Below, one piece after another: positions 18,661 through 54,580 of a stretch of 64,000 nt of DNA. Within the stretch, counting starts at the first letter, position 1, and each line of letters opens with the position of its first letter. Both the position numbers and the translations under genes were made by a program. The DNA is from Aedes albopictus. Its lineage: Eukaryota > Arthropoda > Insecta > Diptera > Culicidae. The stretch covers positions 31,773,115 to 31,837,114 of the forward strand of contig NC_085138.1 of assembly GCF_035046485.1 (NCBI RefSeq), in the 5' to 3' direction. Under the pieces are notes generated by a model. It made no database searches, was not told the origin of the DNA, and saw only the letters and a list, made by a program, of their open reading frames with translations.

Positions 18661-20155
18661 CGAAGTTTAGAAACCTTGGGTAACTAACTTTGAGTTTACT
18701 ATGACAGTACTGCCCTCCGAGTACTTTTTTGAAATTCTTTTTTTTTTTGAGTTAACATATAGAGTATTAGAACACTTTGGTGTTCGAGTAAGGGAAGTAT
18801 GATTTAGATTAATGTTTTCTATAAACAATTTATTTTGTCTCTACCGATGCCACTGTGCAATCCAAATTGAACATCGGTGCTTTTTTCTATCGTTTCAATT
18901 TCGATTCCGTCATTCCACACATAGCGACTGGGAACTGACTTTAATAAAGAACGCGGCACAGCAGCAGTGGAAGCGCTTTCCAGGAAGCGCACTCCATCTC
19001 AATGAATTTTAATTATAAATCTAACCAATCAAGCCGGCGACGGACGTCGACTACGGGGCAATCGACAACCTTCCATACAGCCCAGCAACTGGAAGGTAAA
19101 TTTTTCGCGCAAACATCCAGCCCCAATTCACAATGCCTCGCTTAATTAACACTGGGACTACAACGACGACGACGGGCAAACATGAATAATTGAATGGAAC
19201 CTTAAAAATAACTGTGATTCCGCTCGTTCGGCCCCTCAGATACATTACACAAGTCAGCAGTCGGACAGTCGCAGTTCTGCATCCCTTCCAGAAGGCATAT
19301 CTTCGCCCCTCGAGGGGACCTGCACATAATTGATCAACTTGTTACCTATCTACAGAATGACACCCATCGGAATCAGCGGAATGCCATGCGCCGTCTGGTC
19401 CAGACAATCTCGAGCTGACAATTGATGGAGGGGGCCGAAGCGGGGACATTTCCAATTGACATGTTTGATGGGTGAGGTCGAACAGTGAAAAATTTCCAAT
19501 AGCTGTAGACGACGGATGACGGGGTCAGAAGTGCGGTGAGATTGTTCTGCGCTTATGTTTGATGAACTTTGAACGGCGAAAATTATAGTCATTTCTGATT
19601 TCGGTCGTTACTATTCAGGTGCGTCTCCTTTCTACTCCGAGTTGTAGCAAACATGTTATTTTGTTCCATTCCATATTTTGACTAAATTGACCCGGATCCC
19701 GTTTTGCAGACTCCGCTCTACACACATTACCAACAAACGACATCCTCATTTCAACGGCGGACTCAATCTCCATAATATACCGGTTTATTCTAATGCGACA
19801 TCAATTTTTCAAACTCATTACCGTCAATCCCAGTCATAGTCAGTCGTCGTTCCCGGCTGAGCTCGTCACATCAATTTTTGGGCGAGCGCATGACTCAACG
19901 AGACCCCCCTTGGGAAAGAGCGGCCTCATCGTGTCCACGGAACCCACATTCAGCTTCCTTTTTGTGGAAATCGTCAACTCCCTCGGTTTCCATCTATAGC
20001 TGTGCTGTAACAAAACGAAGCAGCAGGGGCGAACAATTTGGGGAGAAAACGTCACCACAAGATGAGTGACGTTAAAACTTATCTTCCGTCGAATAGCGTG
20101 TCAGAAAAATCAAAATCTATAATGTGACTCCTCATTGAATGCTAAACGCTAAAGC
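18661..20155. other. Low-repeat region, no gene identified
   Basis: About 1.5 kb of comparatively GC-rich DNA that shares no repeat with the rest of the window. Frames are under 85 codons and lack family motifs. It could hold regulatory DNA or an untranslated exon, but nothing in the sequence proves that. Confidence 0.45.
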
Positions 20156-20219
20156 GTTTTCAGCACTAGCGTGCACAGGGGGGGGCAAGAGGGGGCACTT
20201 GCCCCCCCCTTCTATAAAA

Positions 20220-22900
20220 AATTATATGCACCATTTTTGCAATTCTTGCACCTTGGATCTTACCTCGCAATGTTGAGAATCACTGAGCCATGGTGCTCCA
20301 TTGACACATACAATTTCTTAGTATCTCATGCACAACCATGATGTTCTCAGAATCATCTATGCTAAACTCACGCACCATCTTCTAACTAATCAGTGATGTC
20401 AGCACCATATTCGAATAACATGCACCATTTTGGCATTTCGTATTCCAAAACTGTATTCCATGTACGTGAACCATGGTGACTTCGGCACCACATTGAATTC
20501 TAAGCACCATTTTTGCAATTCGTGCACCTAACGAGTATCACTGAATAACAGTGACGACTAATACAGCACACTAACATCATGAACCTTCTTCAAAGCTTTC
20601 AATACACCATCATGATGTCCACAGAATGATCTAGGTATCCACGTATTATGATGATCGCATGAAATGTCTTTTTATCAATTAAGTATCTAAAACTTCATAC
20701 TGATATGCACCATCATGAAACTTCATGCACCATCACAGCTCTTCAAGCACCATTTCAGCGTTTATCATATCATCTAGGCATCTAAAGCACCGTAATGCCG
20801 TGAGCATCACATAAAATACATTTTTTTGTATGCTATGCACCATTTTTGCAATTCGTGCACCTTACCATATTGATAAGCTTTGAAAAACGGTGACAACTAA
20901 TGCATCATCTAGCATCATGCACCTTCTTCAAAGCTTTCCAACCACCATTTTGGCATTCACTATATCATCTAGGCATCTTATGCACCATTATGATGTGGTT
21001 CACAAGTGAATTTGATGCACCATTTTGACATTTCGCATACAAAATAGCATTCCTTGTTCCTGGTCTATGTTGGTTTCTGTGCCGTATTGAGTTTCCTGCA
21101 CCATTTTTGCAATTCGTGCACCTACATATGGAATTTGTTGAGTATAACTGAATCATGGTAAAACTAATGCACCATACAAACATCATGTAGCTCCTTTGCA
21201 TTCCATGATGATCACATAAATATCTAAGCACCATCTCACGCGTCATCTAAGCATTTAATTCACATTTGAATTTCATAAGCTCCATTTTGCCATATCGTAC
21301 ACCAAATTGTATTCCATGTACCTGATCCATGTTGACTTCCGCACCACATTGAATTCTATGCATCATTTTTGCAATTCTTGCATTTTGGGCCTAATCACCC
21401 AATGTTGAGAATCACTGAATCATGGTGGCAACAAATGCACCCCTGATACATGCACATCCATGATGTTCTCAGAATCATTTTTAGGCTAAACTCAAGCACC
21501 ATCTTTTAACTAATCAGTGATGCCAGCACCATATTCGAATAACATGCACCATTTTTGCATTTCGTATTCCAAAACTGTAATCCATGTACGTGAACCATGG
21601 TGACTTCGGCACCACATTGAATTCCAAGCACCATTTTTGCTATTCGTACACCTAGCCATACACAATGTCGAGTGTCGCTGAATAACGGTGACAACTAATA
21701 CAGCACACTAACTGTTGCGGTGTATTCGCACGCGGTGGAATAGAGTATCCCATTTTTGGCAACACGGTAGTTTATCTTGCTGATAGGGCGGAGATGTAGA
21801 TCTAGGTAGGATGGTAGGACAATAATCAAAACAAAACAGAATTGCAAAGTGATCAATATATCGAGTTCGAAGTCAATTCGATTTGCTAAAATAATTAATT
21901 ATTTTGCTACATATAACATTGAATTCGACAGTAAGTACACTTTATTACTGATACTAGACACTTAAATATAACAAATAACACTTAAATTGTACAGGAACAC
22001 GATTGATTACACACGATTAAAGTTGTTACGACAGAACGGATTAGTTACACGAAGGACAAGTAAATGTAAGTAAAATGTAACCTAAATGAATCTGAAAACG
22101 AATTAAAATAATGAATTTCAGCTTATAGCTAACTCATACCCCAAAGACAGAGTTTGCTAATAGGAGGTCCGAAGAAATCCGTACTTGTAGCAACACTAAC
22201 ATCATGTACCTTCTTCAAAGCGTCCACAGAATGAACTAGGTATCCACGCATTATGCTGTTCTCATGCACTATCTTTTAATCAACTAGAAATCAAATGCAT
22301 CATACTGATATGCACCATCGTTAAATTTCATGCACCATCAAAGCTTTCCGAGCACCATTTCAGCGTTTATCTAGGCATCTGATGCACCATTATGTTGTGA
22401 GCATCACATAAAATACTTTTATTTTGTATTCTATGCACCATTTTTGCAATTCGTGCACCTAACCATGCAACATGTTGATAATGTTTGAACAACGACGACA
22501 ACTAATGCAGCACACTAGCATCATACGCCTTCTTCAAAGCTTTTCATGCACCATTTTGGCATTCATTATACCATCTAGGTATCTTATGCACCATTATGAT
22601 GTGGTTTACATTTGAATTTGATGCACCATTTTGGCATTCCGCATACAAAATAGTATTCCACGTACCTGGAACATGTTGATTTCTGTGGCACATTGAATTT
22701 CCTGCACCTTTGCACGAATTGCATGTGCACATTAATATGAAACATGACGAGTATAACAGAATCATAGCTAATGCACCATTCATACACCATTCATGATGTT
22801 CACAGAATCATCCAGACACCATCTCACGCACCATCTTTGAATCAAATATGTGTCTAATTGCGAAATAATGCACCATCGTTAAATTTTATGCATTACTAAA
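20220..22900 (+). repeat. GCACCAT satellite with ~1.12 kb higher-order units
   Basis: The motif GCACCATTTTTGCAATTCGT and shorter GCACCAT units recur every 20-60 bases. Longer blocks repeat at a fixed distance. Text around 20421 recurs near 21541, and text at 20979 recurs near 22587 once the 488-bp LTR-plus-TSD insertion is removed. That gives about 1.12 kb and roughly two higher-order copies. It belongs to the 20164-30765 element, since GCACCAT also appears at its right end. Confidence 0.8.
21713..22195. mobile_element. Solo LTR, possibly BEL/Pao type
   Basis: A 483-bp segment starts TGTTGCGG and ends GCAACA. It is flanked by the 5-bp duplication CTAAC (21708-21712 and 22196-22200) and interrupts the GCACCAT satellite. 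There is no internal coding region, so it is the product of recombination between two LTRs. The BEL/Pao suggestion rests only on the TGTTGCGG start and the 5-bp TSD. Orientation is not determined. Confidence 0.75.
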
Positions 22901-23401
22901 GCTTTCAATGCGTAATCGTGGCGTATATCTGTAGTAATCCGTGAAGGCATTCCAGGAGAAATCCCTGGAGAAATTTCAGGAGGAATCCTTGAAGGACTTT
23001 CTGGAGGAATCCCTGAAGGCATTACTAAAGAAGTGCTTGAAAGAATTCTTGAACGTAGCTCTCAAAAACTGAAAGAGGAGTCTAGAGAAATTCCTGTAGA
23101 ATTTGCAGGACAAACTACCAAAAGAATTGCTGGAAAAATTATTGAAGGAATTCCCTGGAGGCATTTCTAAAGGAATCTTCAGAGAAATTCGTGAGAGAAT
23201 TCATGGAGGAATTTGTGGAGAAATATTTTGAAAAACTCCTGGACAAATTTCTGAAAGTGTTCCAGCAGGGGCTCATTAACGAACCCCTGGAGTAAACTCT
23301 GGAGGCATTCCTGGAAGAAACCCTGGAGAAATTCCTGGAAGAATTTCTGGAGGATTCTCTGAAGGCATTCCTGAAGGAATCCTTGGGAGAATTCCTAGAG
23401 G

Positions 23402-23935
23402 CAATGATGCAAATTATCACCTCACTAGTGCTCATCACAACTCATCAACTGTATATTTATCGCGTGCGATTGAACTGTGCACTGATCAGCGTTGACCAGC
23501 AGCAAAGAGGTGGCAAAACGAACATGATGTAAATCACAAACGATTTTGCACACATCTGACTGTGCCGCCACACGCTCGCCCGAACAACCGAACCATACCG
23601 AATAGGTTGGTTTGCGAAGCTACGGCACGAACGCTCGACACGCACACAGAAGCAACATTCGCATGTACCGATACCATACTAATAAAGCTTCCAGCCAACG
23701 ATGCTTCGCGATAAGCTGTCGAAAAGCATCGAAAGCGATGAAAAGAGATGCTTGGCTAGAACGCAACGGCTCAACGGCGAAAAGGAAGAGTCAACTATGC
23801 TGATCAGTGTTGAATCCGTTCGTGTGCTACTCGTATGGGAGGTTGATTGAATAAAGCGAGGATGGGTGAAAACGTATTCGTTGTCGAAAGCAAATCGCAT
23901 CATTTCGCGAATGTTTTCATCAAATAGCAAGCTTG
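23402..23935. mobile_element. hAT-like 534-bp insertion in the array
   Basis: Unique, GC-richer sequence interrupts the array and is flanked by CCTAGAGG on both sides (23394-23401 and 23936-23943). The ends CAATGATGCAAATT and, reversed, CAAGCTTGCTATTT are only weakly inverted. The 8-bp TSD suggests hAT, although CCTAGAGG is itself frequent in the array. Short frames inside show no motif. Confidence 0.6.
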
Positions 23936-26900
23936 CCTAGAGGTTTCCTTGTAAGAGTTCCTGGAGGAACTTCTGGAAGAATGTCCGGAGGAATTTCTGC
24001 AGGAATTCCTGAGGAAATTTCTGGAGGGACATTTGAAGGAGTTTCTACAAGAATTCCTGGAGGAAGCTATGAGAAATTCCTGGAGAAATCCCTGATGTAA
24101 TCCCTGGAGGAATTCCTGAAGGAATCCGTGATGGAATAACAGGATGAAACACTGGAGGGGTAACCGAAGGAATCCATGAAATAATTCATGGAGGAATTCC
24201 AGGATGAATTGCTGGAGGAATTCCTGAAGGATTTTTTGGAAAAAATCCTGCATGAATTTGTGGAAGAATTACTCGAAATTCAATGACGAATCCTTGCAGA
24301 AATAACTAGAAAAATCTCTGGAGGAATTTGTGGAGCAATTTCTGGAGGAATCAGTGGGATCATTCCTGAAGGAATTTTTGGAAGAATCCGCGAAAAAAAT
24401 CTTGGAGGAATTTCTGAAGGCATGCTTTCAAGAATCATTGGAAGAATTTCTGGAGGATTTTCAGGAGGAATACTTGGAGGAATCCCTGGAGACATTCATA
24501 GAGAAAATCCTAGAGAAAGCTTTGGAAAAATTCCTAGAGAAATCCCTACTGTAATCCTAGGAGAAATTCCTAAAGGAATCCATAAAACAATCCCTAGAGG
24601 TTTTTCTGGAGAAAAATGTAGGAATTCCTGGAAGAATTTCTGGAGGATTTCCTGAAGGAATTCTTTGAAAAAATTCTGGAAAAATATTTGCGGCTTCCTG
24701 AAGGAATGATTAAAGGAACTCCTCGAGCAAAAGAATTCCTAGAGGGATTTTTGAGGAATATCTAAAAAAATCATTCATGAATCCCTGGAGGAATTCCTGG
24801 AGAAATTCCTGGCGAAATCTATGGGGGAATACCTGATGAAATTTTTCGAAGAATTCCTGGAACAATTCCAGGAGAAGTTTTTTAAGTTTTTTTTTCTGGA
24901 GAAAACCATGGATAAATTCTTGTAGGAATACCTAGAGGAATTCTTGGAGGAATCCATGAAGAATTTTTAAGATGATTTTCTGGAGCAATTAATAGAGAAA
25001 TTTTTATAGTTGTCCCAGGAGAAATTTCTGGAGAAATCCCTTGAAAAATTCCAGAAAAAAATCCTGAAAAAATGTCTGTAGAAATCCCTGGAGAAATTTC
25101 TCGAGGAATTCCTGGAAGAGTTCCGGGAGAAATTTCTTCAGGATTTTCTGGAGAAATCCGAGCAGGAATTCATTTAGGAGTCCTTGCAGAAATTCCTGGA
25201 GGAATCTCTGTAGAAATTCCCGAAGGTTTTTAAGATGGAGTTAACGAAGGAATTTTTGCAGGAATAATGGAGGAGTTCCTGGAGGAATTTCCGAAAGAAT
25301 TTTTTGAGGAATTTTTTGCGAAACATTCCTGGAGAAATTCCTGGATGATTTTCTTGAGGAATCTCTGGGGAAATTCCTGGAGGAATCTAGGTTTGAATTC
25401 CGGGAGGTATTTCTGGATAAATTCCTGAAGATTTTTTTGGTGGAATGACTAGAGAAATTCCTGGATAAATTCTTTAAAAAATTTCTGGACAAATATTTAA
25501 GGCTTCCCGGAGGAATGTCCAGAGGAACTCCTCGAGGATTTTGTGAAGGTTTTTATTTGAGTAATTTCTGAAGAAACTCATGGATGGACTCCTGGATGAA
25601 TTCCCGCTGAAATTCCTGGAGGAATCCATGGAGAAATCCCTAAAGGAATTCCTACAGAAATTCCCAGAAAAGATCCGGGAAAAACCCCTGCTCTAATCCT
25701 AAAAGGGATTCCTGAAGGAATCTGTGAAGGAATTCAAAGATGAATCCCTGGAGAATTCCTAGACAAAATTCTGGAAGAATCCTTAAAGATTTTTCTGGAG
25801 AAATTCCTGAAAAAATGCAGTAATTCCTGGAAAAAAAAATCTGGAGGATTTCCCGAAGGAACTCGTTGAAAAATTTCTGGAACAGTTTTGGGAGAAGTTT
25901 TTTTCTGGAGAAATCCGTGGATGGACTCTTGGAGGAATACCTAGAGGAATTCTTGGGAGTATCCATGAAGATTTTTTTAGAGAATTTTCTGGAGCAAAAA
26001 CTAGAGAAATTTGTATAGTTGTTCCAGGAGATTCCTGGAAAAATTCCAGAAAAAAAAATCCTGAAAAAAATTCTGTAGAAATCCCTGGAAAAATTTCACG
26101 AGGAATTCCAGGAAGAGTTCCGGGACAAATTTCTTCAGGATTTTCTGGAGAAATCCGAGCAGGAATTCCTTAAGGTATCCTTGCAGAAATTCCTGGAGGA
26201 AGCCCTGTAGAAATTCAAGATGGAATTACTGAAGAAATTTTTGAAGGAATGAATGGAGGAATTTCTGGAGGAATTCCCGAAAAAATTCTTTGAGGTAGTT
26301 TTAGCGAAACATTTCTGGAGGAATTCCTGGAGAAATTCTTGGATGATTTTCTTCAGGAATCTATGGAGAAATTTCTGGGAGAATCCATGTTTGCATTCCG
26401 GGAGGTATTTCTGGATAAATTCCTCCAGATTTTTTTGGAGGAATTCATTTATGAATTCTTAGAGGAATAACTAGAGAAATTCCTGGATGACTTCTTTAAG
26501 GAATTTCTGGACAAATATTTAAAGCTTCCTGGAGGAATGTCCACGAGTAATTAATAAAGGATTTTTATGAGAAATTTTTGGAGAAACTCATGGATGAATT
26601 CCCGAAGAAATTTGGGAGGGATCCATGAAGAAATCTCTGGAGGAATTCCTAGAGAAATTCCCGGAAAAGATCCGGAAAAAAATATTTTAGGATTTTCTGG
26701 AGGAATTAATCGAGGAATTTCCGGAAGAATCCCTGGAGACAATATTGGAGGAATTCTGGCAGAAATTCTTAGAGAACTTTCTGTAGGAATTCCGGCAGCA
26801 ATCCCTGGAGGTATTTCATGAGGATTCCATGGAAGTATCCCTGGAGGAATTCCTAGAAGAGTTCTAGGAGAAATTGATTTAGGATTATGTGGAGGATTCC

Positions 26901-27078
26901 GTGAAGGATTTCCTGGAAAAATCCCTGGATGAATGCCTTGAGAAATTTCTGGTGGAATCCATGGAGGGAGGAATTTCTGAAGGAATTCCTGAAAAAAATC
27001 CTGGAGAAATTCCTGGAGGAATCCATGGAGGTATCCCTGAAGGAATTCTTGGAAGGGTTCCGGGAAACATTCTTTTAA

Positions 27079-27194
27079 CCCTAAAAGGGATACCTTCATG
27101 GCCTCAGTTTCGTCACCTCGCTGAGTGTGTTCCATCAAATACGAGCTCTGAAAGGAGCCTGGGGTCCAATGGACCCCAGGTATCCCTTTTAGGG
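27079..27194. mobile_element. piggyBac-type MITE with perfect TIRs
   Basis: TTAA flanks both sides (27075-27078 and 27195-27198). Perfect 16-bp inverted repeats begin CCCTAAAAGGGATACC. The CCCT start and TTAA target are hallmarks of piggyBac. The 116-bp interior is non-coding. Confidence 0.9.
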
Positions 27195-30100
27195 TTAAGA
27201 TTCTCTGGAGGAATTCTGACAGAAATTCCTAGAGAATTTTCTGGAGTAATTCCTGGAGATATTTCTGGATGAATTTTTGAAGAAATTCATGAATAAATCG
27301 TTGAAGGAATGAATCCCTGAAGAAGTCCTTGAGAATTTCCTGTAGAATGTCCTGCAGGAATCCATGAAAGAATTGCTGGAGAAATTCCAGGAGGAATTTC
27401 TGGAAGAGTTCCGGGAGAAATTCCTTTAGGATTTTCTGGAGGAATTTGTAGAGCAATTCCTTGAAGAATCCCGGGAGGAAATATTGAAGAAATTCTGGCA
27501 GACATTCCTAAAGGATTTTTTCTAGTAGAAATTTCATGACGAATCTCTGGAGGAATTCCTGGGGGTAAGTCTGGAGGAATTCCTGGAGGTAATTCTGAAG
27601 AAATTTCTGGAGTATTTATTGGAGGAATTATTTGGGGAAATTCTGGAGAAATATATGAGGCTCCATGGAGAAATTTCTGAAGGAACTCCTCGAGAAACTT
27701 CTGAAGGAATTTCTGGAGGAATTTGTGCAGGATATTTTTAAGAATTTCGGAAGAATTTTTCTAACGAATCCCTGCAGGAACTCCTTGAGAAACTCCTAGA
27801 AAAAGTTCTTGAGGAATTCTTAGAGGAATGCAAGGAGAAATCCCTGTAGTTCTGGTGAAAATTCCCAGAGGATTTTTTTGAGGAATTCCTGGAGGAGTTC
27901 CTGATAGAATTTCTGGCGCTCTTCCTTAAGAAATTTCTGAAAGAATTTTCGCGGAGGATTTTTTGCGGAATTTCTGAAGAAATTCATGAATGAATCCTCG
28001 GAGGAATTCCTGAAGAAATGCCTTGAGAATTTCCTGGAGGAATCCATGGGGGAATTTTTTGAGGAATTCTAGGAGGAATTCCTGGAAGAGTTCCGTTTCA
28101 TTTAGGATTTTCTGGAGGAATGCGAGGATCAATTCTTGGAGGAATCGCTGGATGAAATATTGTAGGAATTCTGACAGTCATTCCTAAAAGAAAATTTCAG
28201 GAGGAATCTCTGGAGGAATTATTGGAGTATTTACCAGAGGAATTATTTGAGGAATTTCTGGTGAAATATATAAGGCTTCCTGGAAAATAAATGGAGGAAT
28301 GCCTGAAGGAACTTCTCGAGGAATTTCTGAAGAAATATCTGGAGGAATTTCTGAAGATATTAATTATTGCATCCCTGTAGGAATTCCTGAAGAAATTTCA
28401 GGAAAAAAATCCTGGAGAAATTCCTAGGGGATTCCGTGGAGGATTCCCTGGTGGAATTTCTCGCGGAATCATTCGAGGAACTCCCGGAATTCCTAAAAGA
28501 GTTTCGGGTGAAATTACTTCAGGATTTTCTTGTGGAGTCCATGGATGAATTTCAGGGAGAAATCTCTGGAGGCATCTCGGAGGAATTTCTGGAGGAATGT
28601 CTGAAGGAACTCGGGCAAATTCTGAGCGAATACCTGGTGGAATTTTTTGAGGAATATCTGAAGAAATTTATGAATGAATTCCTGCAGGAATTCTTGGATA
28701 AATTGCCGGAAAAAATCCTGAAGAAATTCCTGAAGGAATCCGTGGAGGGTTTCCTGGACAACTTCCTTGCGGAATTCCTCGAGGAATTCTTGGAAGGGTT
28801 CCGGGAGACATTCTTGGGGAACTCAGGCAGAAATTCCTAGAGGATTTTCTGGAGGAATGCCTGGAGGAACTGCTGGAGGAATTTCAGGAGTTCTTCCTCG
28901 ACAAATTTCTGAAAGAATTCCTGGTGGAATTTCTGGAGGTTTTTTTGTGGAATTTCTGAAGAAATCCATGAAGGAATTTCTGATGAAATTGTTTGAGAAT
29001 TCCCTGAAGGAATCCATGGAAAAATCCTTGAAGAAATTTCTTGAGGAATACCTGGAAGAATTCCGTGAGAAATTCCTTTAGCATGTTATGGAGGCATCCG
29101 TGGAGGAAATATTGGGGGAACTCTGACAGACAGACATTCAGGAGTTTTCCTAGAAAAATGTCAGGAGGGATCTCTGGAGGAATTTTAGGAGTATTTACTG
29201 GAGGAATTCCTGGGGGTTTTATTTGAAGAATTTCTGGAGAAATATACATATGAGGCTTCCTGGAGAAATGTCTGAAAGAACTCCTCGAGGAATTTCTGAA
29301 GGAATTCCTGGAGGAATTTCTGGAAGAAGATTCTGAGGAATTTCTGAAGAAATTCAGTAATGAATCCCTGGAGAAATTCCTTAAGAAATTTTTGGAAAAA
29401 ATCCTAAAGAAATTCCTATAGGATTGCTTTGAGGTATTCCTGGAAGAGTTTTGGAAGAAATTCCTTTAGGATTTTCTGCAAGAATCCGTGGAGGGATTCC
29501 TGAAAGAAATCACTGGTTGCATATTGGAGGAATTTCTAAAGAAATGTCTGAAGGAACCCCTCGAGGAATTTCTAAAGGAATATCTGGAGGACTTTCTGAA
29601 GAAATTTATTATTGAATTCCTGAAAGAATTCCTGAAAAAAATCCTGGAGAAACTACTGGAGGAATCTGTGGAGGATTTCCTGTAGAGATTTCTCGCGAAA
29701 TTTTGGAAGAGTTCCGGGAGACATTCTTTCAGGATTCTCTGAAAAAATTCTGGCTGAAATTCCTAGAGGATTTTCTCGAGAAATCCCTGGAGGAATTTCA
29801 TGAGGAATTCTTGGAGGATTTTTTTTAAGAATTCCTGTAGGAATTTCTGGCGTTATTTTTCGAGAAATTTCTGGAGGAATTTGTTGAGCAATTTAAAAAG
29901 GATTTTTTGAAATGATTCATGGATGAATCCCTGAAGAAATTCGTTGAGAATTTCCTGGATAATTTTCTGAAGGAACTCCTGGAGAAATTTCTCAAGGAAT
30001 TCCAGGAAGATATTCTTCGGAAATTCCTTTAGGATTTTCTGGGGGATTCCGTGGGGCAACTCCTAGAGGAATCCCTGGAGGAAATATTGGGGGCAGACAT

Positions 30101-31002
30101 TTCTAGTGGATTTTTCCTAGAAGAAATTTCAGGCGGAATTCCTGGAGGTAATTTTGGAAGAATTCCTGGAGTATTTACTGGAGGAATTCCTGGAGGAATT
30201 ATTTGAGGAATTTCTGGAGAAATATATGAGACTTCCTGGAGGAATTTCTGAAGGAATTATTGGAATATTTTTTGAGGGAATTCCTGGAGGAACTCATGCA
30301 CGAATCTTTGGAGAAATCCTGGAGGAATCTCTGTAGATTGCAATAAGGATTCCGATCAAAATATTCTATCTAGGAGTTCTGACATTCTCCTAGCATCATT
30401 AATTGTCTAGGATCAAAATTCTTTCACAACGACAATATTTTTTATCTATAATTGATAATTTTCTAGATATTCTCCATTGTATTTGATACGTTTATAAAAT
30501 TTTATAAGAGTCGAGATAATGACTTCATGTTTAAGCTTCGTATTGCCTTGAAATCATTACCATCCGAAGCTCGATCCGAAGCCTTCTCTAGAATCCCAAT
30601 ATGAAGTACTTGGTGATGTTGGCACCACAACATGTTGAAACCCCTACTTGGGAATTCATATTGCGTGTAACACCATCATTCTATTTTGCACCATGATCAT
30701 ACATATATATATTGCACCATTATTATAGTGCCCCCCCCTAAGCAAGAACCCTGCGCACGCTAGTGGTTTTCAGTACTGTTTTTGTCGGGCTTTTGTTCCA
30801 ACGAAGGTAGCCGGTGCCCAAAGAAATGGAGGACATTTCCCGACCAGAAGCACATAGCAAGATTACTACAAATTTATGACAATTGTTAGAAATAACAGAA
30901 GTTGATATAATTATGTTGTGAAGATTCTTTATGTGAATACGGTATTGGTGTCCTTATTACCCTTCATGTACCCGAACCGCGACAACTCATTTTCATCCGT
31001 TT

Positions 31003-31289: not shown

Positions 31290-32395
31290 CGGATCGGTCC
31301 AGCCGTTCCGGAGATATGGCCATTTAGGTGTTCCGGATCGGTACCCCAGGAAGGGGCCAGATATGAAAATGCAACAAACCCATGCATGCGGCCCATCAAA
31401 CCACGGCATTTTCGACTATCTGATGAACGGGAAGTAGGAAAATAATCTCAGACTATATCTGAACCGGTAGTGTTCCGGAACCGGTTCCGGGTGTCCTGCC
31501 GGAAGTGGCCAAATGTAAAAGTGAACATAACCCATGCATGCGACACATCAAAGAGCGGCTTTTTCGATAACCAGTTGAATGATAAGCAGGAAAGTAGTTT
31601 TAGACCATATTTGAACCGGTAGTGTTCCGGAACCGGTTCCGGGTGTCCTGCCGGAAGTGGCTAATAAAAAAAATTGAACCAAACCCATGCATGCGACGCA
31701 TCAAAGAGCTGCTTTATCGATAACCAGATGAACGGTAAGCAAGAAAATAGTTTCATACTGTATCTGAACCGGTTGTGTTCCGAAACCGGTTCCAGGTGTC
31801 CCGCCGGAAGTGGCCAATTAAAAAAGTAAACCAAACCCATGCATGCGACACATCAAAGAGTGGCTTTTTCTATAACCAGATGAATGGTTAGCAGGAAAAT
31901 AGTTTCATACCGTATTTTAACCGGTTGTGTTCCGGAACCGGTTCTAGGTATCCCGTCAGAAGTGACCAATTAAAAAACTGAACCAAACCTATGCACGTGG
32001 CGCACCAAATAGCTGCTTGATCGATAACCAGATGAACGGTAAGCAGGAAAATAGTTTCAGACCATATCTGAACCGCTTATGTATAATAGACGAAGTTGAA
32101 GAGGTGAATCCAACTGAATGCGTCTGACGATGGCCGAATAATTATAGGTCGAAACGCGTAACGCTTAACAAGCTGTTTCCGATATTTGTCACCGATAATT
32201 ACAAATCAATCCACAAATAACATATCTGAACCGGTTGTGTTTCGGAACCGGTTCCAGGTGTCCCGCCGGAAGTGACCAGTTAAAAAAGTGCCATGCAAAC
32301 CCATGCACACGAAACATCAAATCATCAAAAATGTTGGATAACCAGATAAACGGGCAGCAAGAAAATAGTCTCTGACCACACCTAAGATTACCAGC
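31290..32395 (+). repeat. 152-bp tandem array
   Basis: Six to seven units contain the palindrome GGAACCGGTTCC, then GCCGGAAGTGGCCAATTAAA and AAACCCATGCATGCGAC. TGTTCCGG-type landmarks lie at 31471, 31623, 31776, 31928 and, after a 145-bp insert plus TSD, 32238. The period is 152-153 bp. Similar monomers sit inside the element at 34068-34820. Confidence 0.85.
32076..32220 (+). mobile_element. 145-bp retroelement fragment with hammerhead-like core
   Basis: An exact 13-bp duplication CATATCTGAACCG (32063-32075 and 32221-32233) flanks it within one unit of the tandem array. It contains CTGACGA, then a GGCC/GGTC stem, then GAAAC (32125-32157). That is the order of conserved bases in a hammerhead ribozyme (CUGANGA, stem II, GAAA). 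It ends in AATAA-type text. Penelope-like elements are known to carry hammerheads, so this may be their terminal fragment. The outer stems are not clearly formed. Confidence 0.45.
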
Positions 32396-38500: not shown

Positions 38501-39000
38501 NNNNNNNNNNNNNNNNNNNNNNNNNNNNNNNNNNNNNNNNNNNNNNNNNNNNNNNNNNNNNNNNNNNNNNNNNNNNNNNNNNNNNNNNNNNNNNNNNNNN
38601 NNNNNNNNNNNNNNNNNNNNNNNNNNNNNNNNNNNNNNNNNNNNNNNNNNNNNNNNNNNNNNNNNNNNNNNNNNNNNNNNNNNNNNNNNNNNNNNNNNNN
38701 NNNNNNNNNNNNNNNNNNNNNNNNNNNNNNNNNNNNNNNNNNNNNNNNNNNNNNNNNNNNNNNNNNNNNNNNNNNNNNNNNNNNNNNNNNNNNNNNNNNN
38801 NNNNNNNNNNNNNNNNNNNNNNNNNNNNNNNNNNNNNNNNNNNNNNNNNNNNNNNNNNNNNNNNNNNNNNNNNNNNNNNNNNNNNNNNNNNNNNNNNNNN
38901 NNNNNNNNNNNNNNNNNNNNNNNNNNNNNNNNNNNNNNNNNNNNNNNNNNNNNNNNNNNNNNNNNNNNNNNNNNNNNNNNNNNNNNNNNNNNNNNNNNNN
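38501..39000. other. Assembly gap of 500 N
   Basis: Exactly 500 undetermined bases, a conventional size for a gap of unknown length. Open frames that cross it are meaningless. Confidence 0.99.
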
Positions 39001-43609: not shown

Positions 43610-43990
43610 TACCGATACCCATATTGCATGATTTTAGAGCCTGAATGTCCAATAAACAGCCGCCATCTTGAATTTTGAAACGCCATCTTGGATATTCTGC
43701 TCGTCATTTTTGATCTCCGGTCATCTTCCCCATACCAAATATACCCATATGAAATGGTTTAGGAGCCTAAAACTCCATTAAACAGACGCCTTCATGAATT
43801 TGGAGCCGCCATCTTGGATTTTAGATTACCATTTTGGATATTCTCGTCATCATTTTTGAACTTCGGACTTCTTTCCTATACCAAACATATCCCATATTGC
43901 ATGGTTTTAGAGCCTTAAACTCAATTATACATCTGCCATCTTGAATTAGTACCCGCCATCTTGAATTTTATTCATTTTTATTCTTCAATC
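43610..43990 (+). repeat. CCATCTTGG satellite, block 1
   Basis: Two to three units of roughly 120-180 bp carry GCCATCTTGGATTTT, TTTTTGGACTCCGG-like text, ATACCAAATATACCCATATT and TTTTAGAGCCTAAAACTC. Block 2 continues after the insertions at 44106-45120. Confidence 0.8.
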
Positions 43991-45120: not shown

Positions 45121-45475
45121 CTATATTGGATTTTAGGTCGCCATCTTGTATATTCTGGTCGCCATTTTTGGAGTTCAGACATCTTCCCTATACACAATTT
45201 ACCAATATTGTACATATGGTTTTGGAGCCTAAAACACGATTAAGCAGTCGCCATCTCGAATTTTGAGCCGCCATCTTGGCTTTCAGACCGACATCTTGGA
45301 TGTTCCGGTCGCCATTTTGGACTCCAGAGTTCTTCCTCATACCAAATATACCCCATATTGCATGGTTTTAGAGCCTAAAACTATATTAAACAGTCGCCAT
45401 CTTGAATATTGGACTGCCATCTTGAATTTTGGAGGGACATCGTGGAAGTTCTGGTCTCCAGTGTTGATTTCTGCA
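45121..45475 (+). repeat. CCATCTTGG satellite, block 2
   Basis: Units with GCCATCTTGG, GTCGCCATTTTGGACTCCAG and ATATTGCATGGTTTTAGAGC continue block 1 after three insertions. Confidence 0.8.
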
Positions 45476-46191
45476 CATAATTCGTCAACCGTGCTAAAGG
45501 TTACACTCAAACCTCCATTTAGGTCGAATCCATTTAGGTAAAATCTATTTAGGTCCCTCCATTTAGGTAACGTTACCTAAATTAAATCAGATTGTGTTCA
45601 GAGCAGTTGCAGTGTTTTAGATTAAGGATAAGGTTGGTTAAAGGGAATTAAGTTGCAAGTGAAGTTAATGATAGATAAGGGTGTGCCTATGGGGAGGGGA
45701 AGTCAATGAGGAGGGCTGGGGGGTGGGTGGGGGTGGTGGGTTTGGGTGTGCCTGCGTAATGCCTCTGAAACTCGCCTGATTTCTGAAATGCCCTCGAAAT
45801 CCCCCTAAAACCCCCTCGGACCCCATGTAACGCACCTGATACTCTCAGAAACCCCCGAAAACGCCTACGTAATGCCTGAGTAACGCTTCTGAAACTTGCC
45901 AAAAATCGTCTGAAGCTGTCTGAATTGCCTTTAAAATTCCCCTAACACCTCATCGGGCCCCATGTAACGCAACTGAGACCCTCATGAGCCCCCAAAACGC
46001 CTGCGTAACGCCTGAGTAACGCCTCTGAAACTCGCCAAAAATTATCTGAAGCTATCTGAAATGCCCTTGAAATCCCCATAAAACCTACTCGGGCCCCATG
46101 TAACGCAACTGAGACCCTTCGAAACTCATTAAAAATCGTCAAATATTGGGGGGGCAAAACCATGCTTGCCCCCCCTAAGTTGGCGCCTATG
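45476..46191 (-). mobile_element. GGCGCCAAC-family hAT end carrying a 137-bp tandem repeat
   Basis: The right border, read on the minus strand, is CATAGGCGCCAACTTAGGGG, the same end as 3207. Inside, CCCCATGTAACGCA occurs at 45821, 45958 and 46094, so units of 136-137 bp repeat nearly three times over 45744-46143. A CCATTTAGGT motif repeats at 45519-45570. The left border and TSD are not found, so the extent is approximate. Confidence 0.5.
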
Positions 46192-50161: not shown

Positions 50162-52311
50162 TCAAGAGCACGTCTCACACACCATTTTGTCGTTGGAACC
50201 ACATTCACTATGATACCATACACGACATTTGAGGCACATCATCCAGCCTGTGCCATCCATTGAATCGCTGAAACGTACTCCACATGAAGGACAAAGGACG
50301 TCCGTGTCAGCGTTAGTGTCCGCCTTTTTCCGTTTGTTTCTGCGCTGACCCTTTTTGATATGTTTTACTTCCTTTTGTGCGCTTTGCTTAAGCAATCGTT
50401 CACGATAAGCCACTGATGTTAGTTCTTCCGACAGCTCTCGTTTGCGTTTCTGTGATTTACGCTTACGCGCGGCAGGTGCAGGACGAACCAGCTCGGAGGA
50501 CAGCTCAAATGTCGTAGCTTTTGTAATGTCCGGTTCATCTCGATCCGTAGGATCAAAGAGAGATACGGAATTGGTAGTGGTATCCAATTGCTGCTTCAGG
50601 GTCAGGAGCGCTGCTGCGTCCAACCTTTGAATGGTGACAGCACCATTTTTTCAACAGTGTAATAAACGTTCGGATCAACCGTTAGAAATTCCGAGTCACC
50701 GCTGACTTCCCATCTGAACTCGGGTTCATTGCGTTCTTGGTGCGGAATCTCCAACTGAAGTACTTCACAGCCGTTTACTTGAAATAAATTGGCCTGGCAT
50801 ATCCTGCGTGGTCATGTGGCTGTTATCCTCGCAAATACTGAACGTGATGAATAAAAACAAATAAAAAAGTTAACAATGTTTAACATGAGTAGACCATTCA
50901 CAATAGTATTATTTTAATTGATGTTGTACTACAGATAGAATTCTCCACTGTTAGATAAAAGCTTACCTCAGCAGCAGTTGATGGCGTGGGTCCGATTGCT
51001 TCCGTTTGTACATTCTTATCCGCTGTACGGTTAATTGCGTTCAAAGTTAGCGTCAGAGAACAAACCCGTGTCGAATGGATAAATTCCTGTAGCTCAAAAT
51101 CCTACTACGGCATTCTTCATTGTTGCGGTTGCCTCAAACGCCTCGTTGATCAATGTTGCTACATCATAGACTGTTACGACCCGTCTTGGTTCTCGACGTA
51201 ACAGGCGATCGACGGCCTGGCCATACTTTGTATTCAGGGGTCCCATAACAGAAACATCGAGCGGTTGTAATTTGTGGGAAGTATGGGAAGGGATGGACAG
51301 GATACCGACATTGTTTCGTGCTGCTTTTTCGATCATCTCGACGTTCTTAGTATGGCTGGAGTGCCCATCGAGGATCAATAAAACCGGCGCTTCGGCTGTT
51401 GGTCTTGTGTAAGCCAGGAAATGATCAAACCATTTTGTACACGTTGCAACTGTGCTCCATCCACTTGGATTGCATTCGAAAATCGAGCCAGCCGGAGCAC
51501 CAATCTTGAGCGCATCGTTCATCCGTTGTCTGGGGAAAATGAACATCAAGGGCAAATACTGGCCAGCAGCAGAAACCGTCATCATAACGGTCGTGTTGAC
51601 TCCTCTTTCTGCTGACGAGATTGCTCCAACTTGTCGTCGACCTTTGACAGCGAGCACTTTGGAAGACTTATTCGGGACCTGAAAATAAACAAACAATGTT
51701 ATATTGACCAACAGTTTGTAGCACATGAGACATACGGTGCTAAACCCAGTTTCGTCAGCATTCCAAATTCTGCCCGGGGAGTAAACACTGGTTCCGTAAA
51801 TCCTCTCCAAATTGTCGTAAAACACATTCACTGCTACGCGATTAAATCCGGTACTGCGAGCCATTGATGTCTTTTTGGGTGTCCGCAGAGCAAGATTCGG
51901 ATGGCGTCGGCGGAATCCAATGTACCAATCCAATCCGGCGTGCTGCTTTTCCATATCAAACAGATGGGTTATGTTGTTTGTCTCAGCGAACTGGAAGGCT
52001 AGACTTCTAACATCCTTACTGGTCAATCCGTAGCCGCAGTCGCTCATGCGAATTATGATCCCATCAAGGCGCTCTTCTTGTCCTTCGTCGAAGATTGGAA
52101 CAAAGTTTCCAAGGTGAGGAAGAACGACATTTCCTTTTGTTCCGCCTTGTTTTTCCAGGTAGCGACGAAGAGTGCGCTTTGGGATCGAATATTTTAGGCA
52201 AACACTGTTCGTAGATTGTCCCGATCGGACGTCACGGATGGCGCCCGTCAATTGGGTGACCGTCCACGCACGACGGGTCGTTTTACGGATATAATTTCGC
52301 ACTATTTTCAA
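50162..52311 (-). pseudogene. Pogo-type DDE transposase gene, decayed
   Basis: The minus-strand gene encodes a DNA transposase of the pogo/Tigger group (DDE_1 endonuclease). The main frame (52311-51094) has a psq-type helix-turn-helix at residues 12-55, a second DNA-binding region to about 170, and the catalytic pattern NADETGF (D186), LILDGHSSH (D315) and LQPLDVSV (D352). A 57-bp intron (51735-51679, GTATGT to TTTTCAG) is readable in frame. Removing it joins GFST to VPNKSS as in intact relatives. A second intron (50966-50838, GTAAGC to GTTCAG) leads to a C-terminal exon (50837-50162). That exon has a basic region and a PHD-like zinc finger, CPSCGVRF, CLKCRVWYHSEC, CETC. Damage: a likely start codon change (ATA before GTGCGAAAT), a TGA at 51096-51094 within the conserved GF-ATGIYPF block, and at least two frame shifts after it. 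It is unlikely to make active protein. Confidence 0.85.
51679..51735 (-). other. 57-bp intron in the transposase gene
   Basis: On the minus strand it starts GTATGT and ends TTTATTTTCAG. Its length is a multiple of three and it has no stop, so it can be mistaken for coding sequence. The inserted residues CLMCYKLLVNITLFVYFQ are absent from the family motif. Confidence 0.85.
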
Positions 52312-52400
52312 CCCGAAACCGAAACTATCGCGCGACCGTTTTGACAGCTTGTTTTGTTTTCATTCGGTAAGCTAGAGGGTGGCCAGATGGTTTTCTTCGA

Positions 52401-53346: not shown

Positions 53347-53443
53347 GCGGTGATTGACGGAGAAAGCTAATTACGGATCGGAAAGCGAAGAACTTTGTGC
53401 GTTTTTGTATCGTTCGCGTTCTGAGTGATTTGGAGACAACAGA

Positions 53444-54580
53444 ATGGCGGAGTCGAAGATAGTAGTTGAACGCCTCAACTGTTTCAACTGGTCCAGCTGG
53501 AAGTACAGGATGGAGCTGCTTTTGCTGAAGGACCAACTGCATGATATGATTACTCAGCCGAAGCCAGAGCCTACACCCGGAGATTGGGAAAAGAAGGATG
53601 GACAAGCCAGGGCTATGATCGGCCTTGCGTTAGAAAATGACCAACTGTGCCATGTTATGGGTGCTCGAACAGCGAAGGATATGTGGGACGCTCTAAAGAG
53701 CTATCATGAGAGAGACTCACTAACCAACAAAATCCACATAATGCGAAGACTGTTCACCTTGCAGATGGAAGAAGGTGGAAATCTGGCGGAACATTTGGTC
53801 CAGCTGTCGGAGCTTGTTCAACGGTTAGTGGCCATGGGTGAGGACCTCAAAGAGCACTGGGTAATAGCGGTGTTGTTGTCAAGCCTTCCCAGAAGTTACG
53901 ACACATTGATCACGGCGTTGGAAACTCGTCCGGAGACGGAGCTTAAGCTGGAGTACATAAAAGGACGGTTATTGGATGATTGGAGACGTCGATGTGATAA
54001 TGGTGATTGTGATGCCGGCAAAGCGTTAACCGTTGCGACTAAGAGTACTGTGAGGAAGAAGAAAACCTGCTACTGCTGCAAGCGAGATGGGCATTTTTGG
54101 CGGGATTGTCCAAAACTCGATGTGTCTGACGAAGGCGATGAACGTGAAGATCAATGGAAACAAAGTGCAAGGATGTCAAAGCTACGATCACCGAAGCATG
54201 ATGGAGGAGGAATCTGTTTTACTGTCTCAGGAGGAGACAGTGAAGCTGTCGAAAATGCAGTGCTGCGTAAAGATCGTTGGTGTTTGGATTCCAGCTGCGT
54301 GGGCCATCTGACTGGTGATGCTGATCTGCTGGACGATATGGTTGAATGCGATGAAGCTGTCATTTTGGCGGATGGAAGAAAAGTTAGGGCAACAGCTAGA
54401 GGTACAGGAAAACTTTTAGCTAGAGGAAATATAATAACGATAAGGAATGTATTGTTTGTGCCAGAACTCACTGGGAATTTTTTGTCGGTTGTACAAATTA
54501 TTCGTCGCGGATTTGATTTTCGTTTTGATTCGACAGGAGGGCATATTTTAAAAATGACAGGAAGATTGCGGATTGCGTGA
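53444..54580 (+). CDS. Copia-type Gag with truncated protease-like region
   Basis: This 378-residue frame starts at MAESKIVVERLNCFNWSSWK, the usual N-terminal domain of Copia-type Gag (DUF4219). A UBN2/retrotransposon gag region follows (about residues 60-175: WDALKSYHERDSL, HLVQLSELVQRL, LLSSLPRSYDTLI). A zinc knuckle CYCCKRDGHFWRDC (C209, C212, H217, C222) binds RNA. Next comes WCLDSSCVGHLTGDADLL (279-296), where the aspartic protease motif normally reads DSGA. Here it is DSSC, so protease activity is doubtful. The pre-integrase text IADCVIKNGLYYI appears just downstream in another frame, which places the truncation at that domain. The protein would be a capsid-like product only. Start choice: first ATG, after the primer site, in the context CAGAATGG. 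Confidence 0.85.
   Translation: MAESKIVVERLNCFNWSSWKYRMELLLLKDQLHDMITQPKPEPTPGDWEKKDGQARAMIGLALENDQLCHVMGARTAKDMWDALKSYHERDSLTNKIHIMRRLFTLQMEEGGNLAEHLVQLSELVQRLVAMGEDLKEHWVIAVLLSSLPRSYDTLITALETRPETELKLEYIKGRLLDDWRRRCDNGDCDAGKALTVATKSTVRKKKTCYCCKRDGHFWRDCPKLDVSDEGDEREDQWKQSARMSKLRSPKHDGGGICFTVSGGDSEAVENAVLRKDRWCLDSSCVGHLTGDADLLDDMVECDEAVILADGRKVRATARGTGKLLARGNIITIRNVLFVPELTGNFLSVVQIIRRGFDFRFDSTGGHILKMTGRLRIA

Follow-up and report, generated by a model that had tools for sequence, protein, structure and literature searches.

Putative transposase-docking array at one end of a gene-less, 9.6-kb DNA transposon family of Aedes albopictus

The Drosophila element Galileo, of the P superfamily, is the nearest precedent for the unit described here, which lies at positions 20164-30765 of a 64,000-nucleotide stretch of the Aedes albopictus genome (assembly GCF_035046485.1, contig NC_085138.1, positions 31,773,115 to 31,837,114 of the forward strand; hereafter the window). 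Galileo has long repetitive ends with several transposase-binding (THAP) sites in tandem repeats. One site close to the end and others in the internal tandem repeats are recognised by the THAP domain, and the authors of that work propose that having several sites confers specificity (PMC3688188). The inverted arms of Galileo are long and its target-site duplications mostly 7 bp (PMC4168063), whereas the window family has 17-bp terminal inverted repeats (TIRs), a one-sided array of the heptamer GCACCAT and an 8-bp duplication.

Transposons that carry or seed tandem repeats are already well known (PMC9659126, PMC4079207). Xmix with Xstir and miDNA4 of Xenopus, and the Helitron-type DINE and CgHINE, are gene-less transposons that spread or seed such repeats, as here (PMC9659126). 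The review gives a length of about 400 bp for miniature inverted-repeat transposable elements (MITEs) and, in the text available, describes no constrained end array; the window family is about 9.6 kb long. Tetris, a foldback element of Drosophila virilis, has no coding capacity and has 8-9 bp duplications in its complete copies (PMC4079207). However, Tetris has three complete copies with the repeats in inverted arms, whereas the window family has hundreds of copies, no long arms, and repeats that make up most of the unit. Foldback membership was rejected, since the TIRs are 17 bp long and the GCACCAT words at the left and right ends share one strand. The Aedes aegypti elements Muta1 and Muta5 have 12-15-bp subterminal tandem repeats, and their gene-less derivatives number in the hundreds (PMC5225508). 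Their duplications are 8 or 9 bp long and each inverted end has repeats, while the family here has 8 bp only and a one-sided array. The gene-less Aedes group ATon is short and, in the text available, has no such ends (PMC3422177). As far as the literature searched shows, what is new is how large and numerous this gene-less unit is, that its array is one-sided and that the array word is measurably constrained. The literature searches, not all of them aimed at the family, showed no description of it, and TEfam or Repbase may already list it.

The unit in the window is a full-length copy of a gene-less family that inserts whole with an 8-bp duplication, and its left GCACCAT array probably serves as a multi-site docking platform for a transposase supplied in trans. 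The evidence consists of paired asymmetric ends, exact duplications, co-linear interiors, a host reading frame that closes when a copy is removed, and heptamers that change more slowly than their surroundings. The family is a gene-less DNA transposon with a consensus of 9,596 bp and hundreds of copies in the genome.

The ends of the window unit are as the initial annotation reported them. The same 8 bp, GTTTTCAG, lie on both sides (20156-20163 and, identically, 30766-30773, both plus strand), and 16 of 17 bases match between the left TIR (20164-20180, plus strand, A-type, CACTAGCGTGCACAGGG) and the right TIR (30749-30765, minus strand, G-type, CACTAGCGTGCGCAGGG), each located by end-pattern match. 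These are the only two end matches in the window at up to three mismatches; shuffled windows gave a mean of 0.02 matches, and none of 100 gave two. The rest of the window has two further occurrences of GTTTTCAG, one at 1461 (plus strand) and one within the unit at 22092 (minus strand).

In the same genome, the 17-base end has at least 808 matches with no more than one mismatch (413 forward, 395 reverse), and the reversed-pattern control has 1. Repeat counts given here are lower bounds. The ends listed are the first 100 of the at least 808, all exact and all on contig C1 at 3.6-168.4 Mb; 78 of them form 39 inverted pairs within 40 kb and 22 are unpaired. The pairs measure 2,489-24,900 bp, with a median of 9,441 bp. 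Every pair joins one A-type end (GCACAGGG) to one G-type end (GCGCAGGG), in 21 cases in one orientation and in 18 in the other. Therefore, the one-base difference between the window TIRs is a family trait and not decay. The 23 pairs shorter than 9.9 kb were fetched whole; the 16 longer pairs were represented by 4-kb ends (8 pairs) or 160-base ends (8 pairs). Since copies were chosen by perfect TIRs, young copies are favoured.

The initial annotation had proposed looking for such end pairs with 8-bp duplications. An exact 8-bp duplication flanks 35 of the 40 copies, window included, and no exact duplication was found at any other length from 5 to 12 bp. When left and right flanks of different copies were paired, none of 1,560 combinations shared a duplication. 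Among the five copies without an exact duplication, L034 is one base off, and L023 and L029 by eye resemble duplications with a shifted or extra base.

Twenty copies align end to end, with a median pairwise identity of 0.88-0.95 per 300-column bin; therefore, the unit moves whole, with both of its arrays, as had been proposed. Their interiors are shared and co-linear, and the order of the arrays is the same in most of the 21 whole copies profiled. Copy L015 (C1:31817376-31826400) differs; it has the same ends and an exact duplication with a mostly different interior, whose frames were read by eye only.

Copy L011 sits inside a non-long-terminal-repeat (non-LTR) reverse-transcriptase frame and interrupts it. 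Joining its flanks, minus the copy and one duplication, gives an open frame of 565 aa, which aligns with a relative ungapped across the junction (74 of 99 residues identical). The interrupted reverse transcriptase has 12 relatives, including one from an ant and one from Aedes albopictus. The rejoined L011 flanks are an inferred empty site for one copy. This is the sole informative case among four copies examined with 1.5-kb flanks, the other three having no telling frame. When the joined flanks of the window unit were searched, only their own two halves and a right-flank repeat matched, and no second empty site was found.

The GCACCAT array belongs largely to the element and is family-specific. 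One 27-base array word is matched exactly at 460 places in the genome. Among the 100 matches listed, 71 fall on the C1 stretch with known ends (its first 168.4 Mb). Of these, 53 are enclosed by 32 of the 39 pairs, 11 are no more than 15 kb from an unpaired end, and 7 are in neither position. Thus 64 of the 71 are in or beside a family copy. All 53 words inside pairs have the orientation of the element and lie 537-2,340 bases from the A-type end.

The heptamers within this array are constrained. In 17 main-family copies, the 31 GCACCAT words of the consensus differ from the majority at a rate of 0.0164. Base-matched array columns differ at 0.0317, and none of 10,000 draws reached a rate as low as that of the heptamers; random blocks of 7 columns differ at 0.0289, and 12 of 10,000 draws were that low. 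The left TIR has no substitutions in the same 17 copies, which were picked by exactly that word. The slowest of the 22 commonest 7-mers of the second, 12-bp array changes at 0.0287, and that array as a whole at 0.040. Three copies (L012, L019 and L022) form a divergent subfamily, 88-89% identical to the main consensus in the GCACCAT region and 68-73% in the 12-bp array. Compared with the main consensus, their heptamers differ at 0.055, 0.030 and 0.048, base-matched columns at 0.12-0.14 (0 of 5,000 draws as low for each) and block-matched controls at 0.11-0.13 (2, 0 and 6 of 5,000). The heptamers have therefore diverged at 0.25-0.4 times the rate of the bases between them, and they are likely to be transposase-binding sites.

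The strongest competing explanation, although still an unlikely one, is that the heptamers are kept for another reason, either because a host factor binds them (as promoter, insulator or replication sequence) or because the array units homogenise one another. What was measured is rates, and a bound host factor would give the same pattern; the array also has internal duplications, which fits homogenisation. On the other hand, the motifs lie near the ends, where the transposase sites of other elements lie. The two right-end heptamers are kept in 20 of 20 aligned copies, although L050 and L060, outside those 20, by eye have lost one. The 25 words one base off GCACCAT change at an ordinary rate (0.032), unlike what wholesale homogenisation would give. 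Transposase binding remains the preferred interpretation of the slow heptamers.

The initial annotation instead described a hAT-like transposon with two satellites as its cargo, which would spread satellites as it moved. This explanation is doubtful, and clearly more so than the previous one. The 8-bp duplications and the movement of the whole unit agree with it. However, the other proposed satellite, the GCACCAT array, is family-specific with constrained heptamers, and the 12-bp satellite lies mostly outside the family. For a 22-base word taken from the 12-bp array, the genome holds 13,670 exact matches; the first 100 listed span C1:0.58-5.36 Mb, and not one of them falls in the single pair known there. 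The 24 whole copies hold 11 of these matches, which, scaled to about 400 copies, gives an estimated family share of about 1%. The element's 12-bp array is thus related to a satellite found throughout the genome, and its GCACCAT array is a different kind of thing. Because the 12-bp satellite is genome-wide and the share of the family is so small, the element does not explain the GAATTCC-type repeats scattered through the rest of the window, as had been suggested. With an E-value cutoff of 1e-8, just 3 places in the window outside the unit (4 rows) resemble the family consensus, and their identity to it is 67-71%.

In this reading, about 7 kb of 12-bp array would travel as a passenger. It was rejected as a homogenised satellite, since its identity at a lag of 12 bp is 0.58 in the consensus and its columns are conserved one by one between main-family copies. 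The three divergent copies align to it at just the 68-73% given above, so subfamily turnover is possible, and the array behaves as if it turned over or decayed faster between subfamilies. Gaps between copies reach 0.33 in the 12-bp array, whereas across the first 2,400 core columns they do not exceed 0.15. The deletion derivatives L009 and L018 have lost most of the 12-bp array and kept most of the GCACCAT array; a third, L010, has lost parts of both. Elsewhere in the genome, the 12-bp GGAATTCC satellite forms large inverted arrays with a minus arm followed by a plus arm (C1:3185287-3195291 and C1:3327608-3338502). The 1.7-kb edges of the first of these (L065, L066) share nothing but the array. 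In the window, positions 27700-27990 of the 12-bp array have a predicted RNA folding energy of -105.7 kcal/mol, compared with -78.2 for shuffles (z -5.8); therefore, a transcript could form long hairpins.

The features that bear on hAT membership point in different directions. The terminal pattern of hAT elements is C/T-A-A/G-N-G, and both TIRs of the unit begin with CACTA, so this pattern is absent. Targets of hAT elements favour nTnnnnAn, and P elements favour a palindromic target like GTCC/GGAC. In the 35 exact duplications, G at position 1 (17) and A at position 7 (20) are the only single positions that stand out; A7 agrees with the hAT preference, and T at position 2 occurs in 12. The symmetrised duplication reads like GTCA/TGAC, which is weakly closer to the P preference. 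A target-site duplication of 8 bp is also a feature of the P superfamily (PMC7776569). The duplication length therefore suits hAT and P alike, and by this feature the family may be either P-like or hAT-like.

Matches to transposase domains in the same genome number 124 for the P-type domain PF21787, 138 for the hAT dimerisation domain PF05699 and 68 for Mutator-like elements (MULEs). Their positions were set against those of the first 100 ends, all on C1, and the 325 matches on C1-C3 were also set against 44 atypical ends. The closest match to any of the ends listed is of hAT type and lies 6.7 kb beyond the end, and the pairs compared have no hAT match inside them. The closest of the 135 hAT matches on C1-C3 to any of the 44 atypical ends is 328 kb away, and the closest P-type match 88 kb. 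A P-type gene read around as a candidate partner (L064) has no CACTAG and lacks the family ends. The consensus was rejected as coding, since by eye, with no family scan, its frames of at least 100 residues look like readings of the 12-bp repeat. Copies L034 and L042 carry nested non-LTR genes, and by eye no transposase was seen in them.

It is improbable that the family belongs to the MULEs with subterminal repeats. In favour of this reading, Muta1 and Muta5 make duplications of 8 or 9 bp, have subterminal tandem repeats, nine in number, and have given rise to hundreds of derivatives without genes (PMC5225508). However, 35 of the 40 copies have duplications of exactly 8 bp and 0 of 40 have 9 bp, whereas 39 of 60 yeast insertions of Muta1 have 9 bp (PMC5225508), and the array is at one end. 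The MULE matches are also distant: the 6 on the C1 stretch are at least 376 kb from the ends listed, and the nearest of the 66 on C1-C3 is 793 kb from any of the 44 atypical ends. An assembly artefact, or two separate short elements that flank the arrays by chance, can hardly be correct, since, although long repeats are a classic assembly hazard and a 500-N gap lies elsewhere in the window, the 39 pairs have identical asymmetric ends, duplications match within pairs only, the array order is shared by most of the 21 profiled copies and an empty site is inferred. The pair-specific duplications and the L011 frame are taken to refute independent ends or assembly error for the family.

Several results weigh against a gene-less family that moves whole and is served in trans through its heptamers. 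Two copies have by eye no confidently recognisable duplication: L009, which is weaker, and L054 (24.9 kb), where none was seen. The 20-copy alignment omits L009, L010, L015 and L018, which have large internal changes. The lowest pairwise identity per bin among the aligned copies is 0.36-0.85; this is due to the divergence of L012, L019 and L022. The C1 stretch has 21 P-type, 14 hAT-type and 6 MULE-type matches, but the pairs among the ends listed enclose none of them, and neither an autonomous copy nor a transposase was found inside the pairs compared. The autonomous partner may have diverged ends, lie elsewhere or be lost. Five divergent copies were aligned in the comparison between subfamilies, of which L034 and L015 were dropped as their left parts are unalignable (0.41 and 0.52 identity); in L034 the heptamers differ at 0.576 and the other columns at 0.599. 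The three retained copies are mutually related. At its fourth base the heptamer does not change slowly (0.044), and word-by-word controls are few because the other words common in the array mostly overlap GCACCAT. The slow evolution of the heptamers could also have another cause.

The window copy is 94-97% identical to the consensus in four blocks, which are separated by its three later insertions. A G-run and a GC-rich near-palindrome (GGGGGCACTTGCCCCC), recognised by eye, adjoin the left end (20181-20218, plus strand). They were seen by eye in most of the 40 left ends and are absent in L011 and L015; the length of the G-run varies. The putative transposase-docking array follows (20219-22930, plus strand), with 29 intact heptamers compared with 31 in the main consensus, and with an internal duplication at about 1.15 kb. 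It is split by a later insertion of 480 bp (21713-22192) with its own 8-bp duplication, ACACTAAC, which is not in the family consensus. No inverted pair of at least 40 bp was found in 20100-22960. The degenerate 12-bp GGAATTCCTGGA-type array, read as the passenger, occupies about 22936-30333 (plus strand), and its order is conserved between main-family copies. It contains a second short nested element of 534 bp (23402-23935) with its own 8-bp duplication CCTAGAGG, and a MITE-like insertion of 116 bp (27079-27194) with inverted ends CCCTAAAAGGGATACC and TTAA on both sides. The right subterminal segment of about 415 bp (30334-30748, plus strand) has no 12-bp array and holds two copies of GCACCAT (30688 and 30714) on the same strand as the left array, so the motif does occur beside the right TIR as first noted. 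At the right end, the 40 copies resemble one another over the outermost 110 bases. The plus strand of the window has 34 copies of GCACCAT, of which 31 are within the unit (29 in the left array and 2 beside the right end). The initial description of the unit needs three corrections: the arrays are degenerate (57-78% matches in 12- and 24-bp tandem-repeat rows), three later insertions interrupt them and the right subterminal segment is not 12-bp array.

The window has further features outside the unit. Tandem arrays lie at 31349-32082 (about 152 bp), 43615-43970 (126-146), 45142-45460 (146) and 45782-46125 (136). The run of 500 N is at 38501-39000. An open frame at 51094-52359 (minus strand) resembles by eye a DDE transposase; compared with viral contigs, it has no relative. 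Another at 53429-54580 (plus strand) resembles by eye a copia-type gag. The two end sequences of the family were also scanned in viral contigs and phage records, where nothing was found.

In the mechanism proposed for the gene-less family, a transposase made elsewhere by an autonomous element would bind the heptamers in trans, bring the ends together and move the unit by cut-and-paste. About 30 sites at one end and 2 at the other would let a very long element compete for the enzyme, and about 7 kb of 12-bp repeat would be carried along as a passenger. Added length lowers transposition, as stated for the long ends of Galileo (PMC3688188). Since gene-less DNA transposons are mostly short (about 400 bp for MITEs, PMC9659126) and length lowers transposition, a 9.6-kb gene-less family with hundreds of copies needs a reason for its success. 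It is tentatively suggested, with less confidence than the docking platform itself, that one end acts as an antenna. About 30 selectively maintained docking words over 2.3 kb, compared with two at the other end, might allow the unit to outcompete ordinary copies for a borrowed enzyme and to overcome the length penalty of about 7 kb of satellite-type DNA, so that hundreds of satellite-laden units spread. A repeated word at one end, kept while the intervening sequence decays, is a measurable candidate for that reason. In this family, the idea that capturing a transposase at many sites is a competitive trait can be tested, and two kinds of array that are easily lumped together as satellite come apart: an end array that is likely functional and an array that is passive.

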